The translations under genes and the position numbers were made by a program. Of a stretch of DNA of 64,000 nt, positions 35,207 through 39,179 are shown in pieces (the stretch's first letter is position 1; each line of letters starts with the position of its first letter). Under the pieces are notes generated by a model. It worked only from the letters and a program-made list of their open reading frames with translations. It was not told where the DNA came from and did not search any database. This stretch comes from Gloeomargaritales cyanobacterium VI4D9 (lineage in GTDB: Bacteria; Cyanobacteriota; Cyanobacteriia; Gloeomargaritales; Gloeomargaritaceae), in contig OV696605.1 of the NCBI GenBank assembly GCA_927797885.1, positions 595,157-659,156 on the forward strand, written 5' to 3'.

Positions 35207-36383
35207 TTACATATTTAGGCGTGGGACGACCCGATTGAGCCAATGGACAAAATTCCACTCCTGCCGTATTAAGATTTGTATATATCGGAACTTATCTGCC
35301 AATTTACTTCCGTACATCCGTGGAACTTTTAACAGTTGCAATATCAAGTAAACTATTAAAATTACATAAATTTGAATGGTAATTCCATTCAAATTTTTAC
35401 TCATCATTTTATCGAGCTTTAAGTTCATCTTTAGAAATTTCCATAGTACCTCTATCGCCCAGCGTTGTCTATAGGCTTCCCCTATCTCTTCATTACTCAT
35501 TACATCCTCAGGAATATTGGTAGCTAAATAATAGTCTACTTTCTGTTGAACATTGCCAAAACAAACTACTCTCGCCCAGAAGTGTTGAATCTTAAGATTT
35601 TGAGGGTTTGTGCCAAAATGTGCATCTAACCTGATGATACAAAACATTGTCATTTAGGGGCTAGATTCTCATTTATAACAAAAAATTTTCTCATTAAGTG
35701 TTTTGCCTGGCTCGAATTTATGAACTTTTGTTGCAGGGTTCAACACTACTGACTCTCGCCTTACCTCGTTCTGTGGTGATATGATAGTTTTCATCCCATT
35801 TCCAATTCGACTTAATACGGATAATAAAAAGGGCATCATTTTCGATAAATTGTTCAAATACTTTGTGACTGCAAAACCCTCTATCCCCGACTGCGACTCC
35901 ATTTTCCGGTAGCATTTTCACAATATCTTCACCAAAATTAATCTCATGTGCCTGTCCAGGACTAACAATTAAATGACCAGTAGATTTCGTATCTTGATTC
36001 AAAGTGGTTATTAACTTTACTTGGCGATAGCCTTGGAGCCAAAATAACTTACTCATCAGCGGTATTACGGTAGCATCAAAAGGACATAAAACCAACCTCT
36101 TTTCAGGATGAGCTTCCTCAATATAATGCAATAATTTATGATAAAGATGCATAAAAATTTGTGGGTCTCTTGTCTTGTTCGCCTTAGAAAACGTGGATAA
36201 GTCAACCTTAATGCCCGCATGATTTAATTGGTAAAATAAGTCCCGTAAACTGTTGATTCCTTTGTCTAAAATGCCAGCAAACCAGATTGAACAAAATAAG
36301 CGAGAATTTAGAACTGGATAATCATTAGTTGGCAGGTCTTTGAGTAAAAATTTGACAATCCCGGGAAAAGAATTGAATTTCAT
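35207..36383 (-). pseudogene. IS4-family DDE transposase interrupted by a MITE
   Basis: Two halves: 36383 down to 35752 (N-terminal) and 35567 down to 35207 (C-terminal). Removing the MITE and one copy of its 9-bp duplication rejoins them exactly in frame, giving a 330-residue transposase. Catalytic residues are visible: Asp in CPFDATVIPL, Asp in VGDRGF, and Glu within YRQRWAIEVLWKFLK, which is the IS4 signature Y-(2)-R-(3)-E-(6)-K. The insertion adds 184 bases, not a multiple of three, so the gene is inactive as it stands. Confidence 0.95.
35577..35751 (+). mobile_element. 175-bp MITE inserted in the transposase gene, copy 3
   Basis: Ends CAGAAGTGTTGAA and TTCAACACTACTG. It is flanked by perfect 9-bp direct repeats ACTCTCGCC at 35568-35576 and 35752-35760. 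Its ends match those of the host IS element, so it was probably moved by the same or a related transposase. Confidence 0.97.
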
Positions 36384-38394: not shown

Positions 38395-38543
38395 GGCAAA
38401 TCCCTGCGTTACGTGCCCCCCTAGTGTAATGGGGTTTTTGGGTCGCTGACAAGTCGCTCGCCCCATTCTTAAGGGATTTTTAGTCTCAGGGCTTGGCTGG
38501 ATTTGTTTATACAATGTAAAATTACCAGAAAACTTGGGTCTAA

Positions 38544-38594
38544 AGCCCCGCCCTTAGTGCCTACGGCACGGCTACGCCTAGAGGGCGGCTTTGT
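38544..38594 (+). other. large imperfect hairpin, possible mobile-element end
   Basis: AAAGCCCCGCCCT pairs with AGGGCGGCTTT (11 pairs with a bulge), enclosing a GTGCCTACGGCAC hairpin and a GGCTACGCC hairpin. There is no T run. It sits directly upstream of the RNA candidate. It may be a subterminal hairpin of an IS200/IS605-like element; that is inference. Confidence 0.45.
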
Positions 38595-38603
38595 GCTATA
38601 CTT

Positions 38604-38850
38604 AGCGTAGAGGTAAGGGTAGTCAACCTCTTTAAAAACCCAGTAGCCTAACGGCTAAGCAACAACCTAAGATTTCCTTATGGTTAGTTCAAAGGTACCT
38701 TAGGGCATAAGGGAACCGCTTGCCCCCCTTCGACTGAGGGGGAGGGAACGACTGGGGAGACAAGCGCCTCTGCGGTTGAGGGGCAACCTGATACCATAAG
38801 TGCGGTTGCGGAACCAGTAACAAGAATCTTCTGCCTTTAGGCAGGAGAGT
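38604..38850 (+). ncRNA. orphan HEARO/omega-RNA-like structured RNA candidate
   Basis: About 245 bases with many consistent helices: GAGGT with ACCTC at the 5' end, TAGCC with GGCTA, CCTAAG with CTTAGG, CGCTTG with CAAGCG enclosing a C5/G5 hairpin, GCAACC with GGTTGC, and a 3' hairpin CTGCCTTTAGGCAG. The segment AACCGC (after GGGCATAAGGG) can pair with GCGGTT in the loop of CCTC...GAGG, a pseudoknot. From memory, the GGGCATAAGGGAACCGC block and this pseudoknot resemble HEARO RNAs, the guide RNAs of IscB/IsrB nucleases. A TGTGCTATACT -10-like element lies at 38590-38600. No IscB or HNH gene is adjacent. Confidence 0.5.
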
Positions 38851-38980
38851 ACAGTCTATTTGTCAATTAAAGGATACAAAAAGCCTTGATTATTCTAACC
38901 TTGATTATTCTAAAACCTCAGCATGATTGACCTACGGCAAACGGGGTTCAACTGTATCCCATAACTACTTAAAAGACTGT
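38851..38980 (-). repeat. family B repeat, reversed
   Basis: Bounded by ACAGTCTATTTGTCAATTAAAG and TTAAAAGACTGT. It is the reverse complement of the copies at 25628 and 30753 and carries an internal direct duplication of CCTTGATTATTCTAA. It abuts the 3' end of the RNA candidate. Confidence 0.85.
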
Positions 38981-39179
38981 ATGTCAAATGAAAGGGCATA
39001 TCTCTATGGCAAGCCCGGGCGATTCGCAAACAGAAATTCCATAGAACCAGACCGGGGCGGTGCCCTGCGACCCTCAATTTTTTGAGTATAAACATTTTAG
39101 TTACAATTTTATGTACAATTTAAGTGCGATTGCTGTGGCGGTACCCACAAATCACCCAGTGTCTGGGATTGCTGTTTCT

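Follow-up and report, generated by a model that had tools for sequence, protein, structure and literature searches.

The window, a 64,000-nucleotide stretch at positions 595157-659156 of the single 3.16-Mb contig of a Gloeomargaritales cyanobacterium (genome G000), contains what is very probably a mobile element of the IS200/IS605 type that encodes no protein and carries a TnpB guide RNA, with a promoter and a leader replacing tnpB. The borders of the element, the homology of its RNA to TnpB omegaRNAs (reRNAs), the covariation within that RNA, the conservation of promoter and leader and the absence of tnpB are all established by sequence comparison. The coordinates of the features are given in Table 1.

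A blastn search with the segment found related copies elsewhere in the same genome, identifying it as a repeat. The L019 copy sits behind a reading frame ending in KNAAINILKKGLEMLG..., which is the C-terminus of TnpB, and TnpB genes that are intact, or almost so, extend in relatives into the same RNA as the window scaffold. The TnpB proteins that precede the scaffold in these relatives contain an OrfB_IS605 domain (PF01385) and the TNB domain PF07282, and their best natural relatives with a solved structure are TnpB 8h1j and 8bf8 (the 8bf8 sequence is the same as that of 8ex9/8exa). The same overlap exists in the window scaffold, where a TnpB tail spanning 48 codons can be translated in frame up to its stop, and an intact TnpB from G037 matches the window with residues 382-421 at 56% identity and without stops (E 0.001). 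The stretch GGGCATAAGGGAACCGC, which had been likened to HEARO RNAs, provides codons GHKGTA of this tail and is also the first hairpin of the omegaRNA scaffold.

Table 1. Features of the element and its immediate surroundings, in window coordinates.
Feature	Start	End	Strand	Basis
Target TTAC, flanking the element on its left	38522	38525	+	TTAC precedes 18 left ends among the 22 related ones (count made by eye)
Whole non-autonomous IS200/IS605-type element, including the nested MITE	38526	38987	+	Flank homology, empty site
Left end, imperfect palindrome	38529	38592	+	23-29 bp common to left ends of tnpB elements
Extended -10 promoter TGCTATACT	38594	38602	+	TGnTAnnnT at the same place in related copies
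Leader RNA core	38609	38656	+	Pairing in leader alignment A3; matches of leader model R2
Remainder of short-form leader	38657	38693	+	Aligned over copies of own genome, G003, G035 and G139
TnpB omegaRNA (reRNA) scaffold	38694	38849	+	Covariation; match of model R1, 117 bits, E 5.5e-32 (E-value rough; score partly by construction)
In-frame tnpB 3'-end remnant (GTLGHKGTACPPSTEGEGTTGETSASAVEGQPDTISAVAEPVTRIFCL*)	38694	38840	+	Translation; TnpB match from G037
Nested MITE with TA duplication (TA-CAGTC...GACTG-TA)	38850	38981		Splits the omegaRNA tail from the scaffold
TGTCAA, the right end and displaced tail of the omegaRNA	38982	38987	+	Tail as in other A2 sequences

The covariance model R1 was built from 33 RNAs (alignment A2), nearly all of them located directly 3' of tnpB. 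The score of the window is partly by construction because the window is among these training sequences, and the E-values of R1 and of the leader model R2, both home-made, are rough. R1 matches ten places in the window genome and 27 of 59 genomes, and it also finds the 3' ends of TnpB genes just 29-36% identical to the query family. Independently of R1, the TnpB protein of L033 matches the window locus, and the L002 copy used as a blastn query retrieves tnpB loci. The scaffold ends at the right end, directly before the guide, in the 32 other A2 sequences; this last arrangement is broken in the window. By its overlap with the tnpB 3' end and by a covarying structure that is also found beside intact tnpB, the window segment is a TnpB-type omegaRNA scaffold, and the IscB type (HEARO) is excluded.

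The initial annotation had taken the segment for an orphan HEARO-like RNA, a guide of IscB/IsrB nucleases standing without its nuclease. The orphan guide RNA has held up, the RNA being of the omega type and its nuclease absent; the family has not, since it is that of TnpB. Searches of the window for the TnpB domain (PF07282) and the IscB domain (RRXRR) found no match. HEARO RNAs are also guide RNAs borne by transposons, they share the general principle of placing a guide scaffold at the end of a transposon, and they are present in related cyanobacteria; one of them, at G005:C166:9617-9815 in the genus of the window genome, is a genuine HEARO RNA with 95.5 bits. They form a separate family, however, and their covariance model, RF02033, found no match in the window or its genome, although it works in other cyanobacteria, with matches of up to 168 bits in 25 of 194 genomes, including the same genus. 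In addition, the window RNA overlaps the 3' end of tnpB and sits at the right end of the element. The genome search for RRXRR was negative too, but 14 control genomes were equally silent. Taken together, a HEARO RNA minus its nuclease has next to no chance of being the right description.

A search of Rfam at curated cut-offs gave no match in the window, and at E<=10 positions 38400-39000 gave chance matches only. RAGATH-18 (RF03064), a scaffold of IS607 TnpB that has been described as a TnpB reRNA (PMC11061315), does not match the window even at E<=10; in long units related to it, the match to the omegaRNA portion is weak and below the cut-off (26.2 bits and E 0.0086 against L195, cut-off 44.9). 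Its transposon family differs from that of the window element.

The proposal that the segment encodes a structured RNA is confirmed by the alignment. We collected 46 loci via the protein, and A2 comprises 33 RNAs, that of the window included. Its consensus has 8 helices and 35 pairs, with 97.6% of cells paired (79% in shuffles). Covariation in relatives, which the same annotation had named as a check, is found as double (compensatory) changes in 27 of the 35 pairs compared with 18 in shuffles, a level reached by 0 of 500 shuffles, although common descent accounts for part of the conservation inside a mobile family and the shuffle nulls, for scaffold and leader alike, ignore kinship. The signal vanishes when the helix partners are slid. 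As a single sequence, the segment has an insignificant fold energy (z -1.6), and neither strand folds remarkably. The pseudoknot originally suggested, between AACCGC and GCGGTT, has to be abandoned: it is paired in 44% of cells, which is below shuffles, and shows no compensatory change. In ISDra2, the loop of stem 1 pairs with the last bases ahead of the guide (PMC10097598). By analogy we infer a pseudoknot in which UGUC of the tail pairs with the GGCA loop at 38704-38707; these two sequences hardly vary across A2. At L170 and L173, two other TnpB-type loci, the equivalent stem-1 loop is GACA.

The flanks define the element as a unit that was inserted. Homology of the left flank to the relatives G003 and G004 reaches TTAC and then ends. 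Once joined at 38525 and 38988, the flanks give an unbroken alignment to G003, which lacks the element; taken by itself, the right flank has a score of 120, compared with at most 60 in shuffles. The empty site in the diverged G003 reads AATAT. TTAC is found at the left of the element and none at the right, as for IS200/IS605 elements, which insert 3' of a short target (here TTAC) without target duplication, and TTAC is also the target of IS608 (PMC8612924). The right end is TGTCAA, as it is for 39 of the 40 related ones; the remaining one is TGTCAT. The tails of the 32 other A2 sequences are identical except for one TGTCAT, and unrelated sequence directly follows each of them. At the opposite border, 23-29 bp of the left end recur in the left ends of the tnpB elements L053, L057, L064, L078 and L132, where they lie some 70-95 bp upstream of tnpB. 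A strong double hairpin noted earlier at 38540-38592 is real and corresponds to this left end. With the shared left end, the TTAC target and the empty site in G003, the element is, judged by its ends and flanks, of the IS200/IS605 type and devoid of tnpB. It is non-autonomous, because it contains no Y1 transposase TnpA and the Y1 copies in the genome are all frameshifted.

The loop of the left end contains a palindromic repeat, TGCCTACGGCACGGCTACGCCTA (38553-38582), variants of which occur in L003, L005, L010 and L019. In several copies of the element, repeats of this type have entered hairpin loops, both those of the element and those of the omegaRNA; they resemble the small dispersed repeats of cyanobacteria.

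The sequence described earlier as a TATACT box (38597-38602) turned out to belong to a conserved extended -10, TGnTAnnnT standing at a fixed place in 30 of 39 related copies, compared with 1.4% in shuffles. No -35 match was found at the promoter position. The leader core begins seven bases after the extended -10, and transcription would start at about position 38609. The core is composed of a first hairpin (38609-38613/38627-38631), an H-type pseudoknot (38617-38620/38638-38641) and a second hairpin (38645-38648/38653-38656). In alignment A3 the leader is 96% paired and 6 pairs show double changes, which 0 of 500 shuffles, again blind to kinship, could equal. The leader has no match above cut-off in Rfam and belongs to no family there. 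A SAM-II match at E 3.3 was dismissed as chance, and a comparison by eye with motifs of the pistol ribozyme and of group I introns gave no support.

Positions 38594-38693 are common to other tnpB-less copies, in other cyanobacterial families too, and were not found in the tnpB elements compared. R2 has matches in 28 of the 242 cyanobacterial genomes searched, and a single genome holds as many as 20 copies. At 22 of 30 leader loci a TnpB-type omegaRNA follows within ~280 nt downstream, and at none of the 30 does tnpB lie between leader and omegaRNA. A set of 55 loci with a query-family TnpB or an R1-type omegaRNA produced one marginal R2 match, located away from the omegaRNA, and 28 TnpB loci picked by domain produced none. 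Many of the units outside the window genus are longer, about 310-400 nt, and have additional covarying helices; some leader copies are without a recognizable left end or without an omegaRNA. All 12 leader-bearing genomes tested have TnpB-domain matches, from 7 to 58 each. In G035, leader-borne scaffolds and the omegaRNAs at the tnpB loci of that genome share 81-92% identity, in a comparison whose tnpB genes may be damaged themselves.

The window copy is a disrupted omegaRNA member, because a MITE lies between its scaffold and TGTCAA. Uninterrupted copies read GAGTATGTCAA and then the guide. The window copy reads GAG-TA-CAGTC...GACTG-TA-TGTCAA, the MITE of ~130 bp parting the scaffold from tail and guide, and the displaced guide position would begin at 38988. 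The MITE has the termini CAGTCTATTTG.../...AAAAGACTG and is present in dozens of copies in its own genome, G003 and G004. A TGTCAA also occurs within the left end of the MITE itself (38861-38866) and might fortuitously mimic the lost omegaRNA tail. The cognate tnpB is represented in the window genome by fragments only (1541634-1544057, split by a transposase gene; 2346455; 201023), and the sole full-length TnpB ORF found there is 34% identical and lies at a locus without R1 match. Because the tail is split off and neither an intact cognate tnpB nor an intact Y1 tnpA was found in the window genome, the window copy is probably dead. Positions 35207-36383 hold a frame-broken transposase copy, and an open 355-aa copy of the same transposase (L019, L026) lies inside the shredded cognate tnpB. 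A third interspersed repeat adjoins the element at 39005-39108; in G003 and G004 it occurs as dozens of partial copies.

These data bear on the possibility of a plain relic, in which an internal deletion of a tnpB transposon spared both ends and the omegaRNA, the promoter and leader being inert filler that hitch-hiked. The interrupted tail, the shredded tnpB remains and the frameshifted Y1 copies of the window genome fit such an origin. Against it stand the leader pairs, which are kept by compensatory change in many families, the maintained position of the extended -10 and the recurrence of the leader in so many genomes and copies, since random deletions would not yield an identical insert. 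We consider a plain relic of this kind unlikely. Of the relic and the trans-acting guide, both of which had been offered at the outset, the relic leads for the window copy and the trans-acting guide for the family. Also offered was a domesticated regulatory RNA; such a unit would regulate host genes, for example via a TnpB-like repressor. The leader units L196, L199 and L203, which have no recognizable transposon left end, would agree with domestication. On the other hand, the sequence that follows differs in nearly all of the 32 distinct leader units with a complete tail, the window copy is missing at the orthologous site of G003 and at the end of the left flank shared with G004, and no link of the guides to host genes was found, which makes a host role quite improbable.

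For the protein-less element with a guide RNA of its own, which we prefer, the following scheme can be proposed. The promoter and the folded leader, in the former place of tnpB, run directly into the omegaRNA scaffold, and the transcript of a working relative would finish with TGTCAA and, serving as guide, ~16 nt from the flank. TnpB from another locus would load this stand-alone guide RNA in trans. TnpA would excise the element, the guided TnpB would cut the resulting empty site, and repair after the cut would restore the element at the excised site; such an element would live in trans on the TnpA and TnpB that other elements provide. The steps proposed in this scheme are transcription from the extended -10, loading in trans and retention. 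TnpB omegaRNAs are normally processed out of the tnpB messenger. TnpB is able to produce the omegaRNA from its own messenger (PMC10278001), and our guess is that the leader may replace this messenger-derived route. A broader reading, which we hold and doubt in equal measure, is that guide-RNA genes which are mobile and stand alone make up a widespread cyanobacterial family, drawing in trans on the TnpA and TnpB of other elements; the leader of this family would then represent a functional RNA domain of a new kind, serving, for example, stability, processing or TnpB loading.

Among known systems, the window RNA is most readily compared with the TnpB reRNAs of the ISDra2/IS608 type, whose scaffold also overlaps the tnpB 3' end and which end at the transposon right end and take their guide from the flank; the pairing of first-stem loop and tail seen in ISDra2 may be possible in the window RNA as well (PMC10097598, PMC8612924). 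In contrast to ISDra2 and IS608, the window element has no tnpB, has its own promoter and a structured leader replacing the coding sequence, and has had its tail split off by a MITE. IS200/IS605-derived MITEs and palindrome-associated transposable elements, the latter compared by literature description only, are protein-less like the window element, have IS605-type ends and are moved in trans; to these properties the window-type elements add a complete omegaRNA, a conserved leader and a promoter. We found no report of guide-RNA-carrying MITEs or orphan omegaRNAs in the open literature, outside which most subscription papers lie, and novelty is unproven. If the preferred reading is true, guide RNAs would prove able to propagate on their own, parasitizing an RNA-guided nuclease, and the use of omegaRNAs in trans would be a possible step from transposon retention to the CRISPR-like separation of guide and effector. 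Such use would be open to direct test in those cyanobacteria whose genomes carry as many as 20 units. Well suited to this are the genomes of L195 and L194 (G177 and G135), G128 and G139, each with 7 to 20 leader units and 38 to 58 TnpB-domain matches, and one leader unit lies unannotated on a Dolichospermum plasmid.
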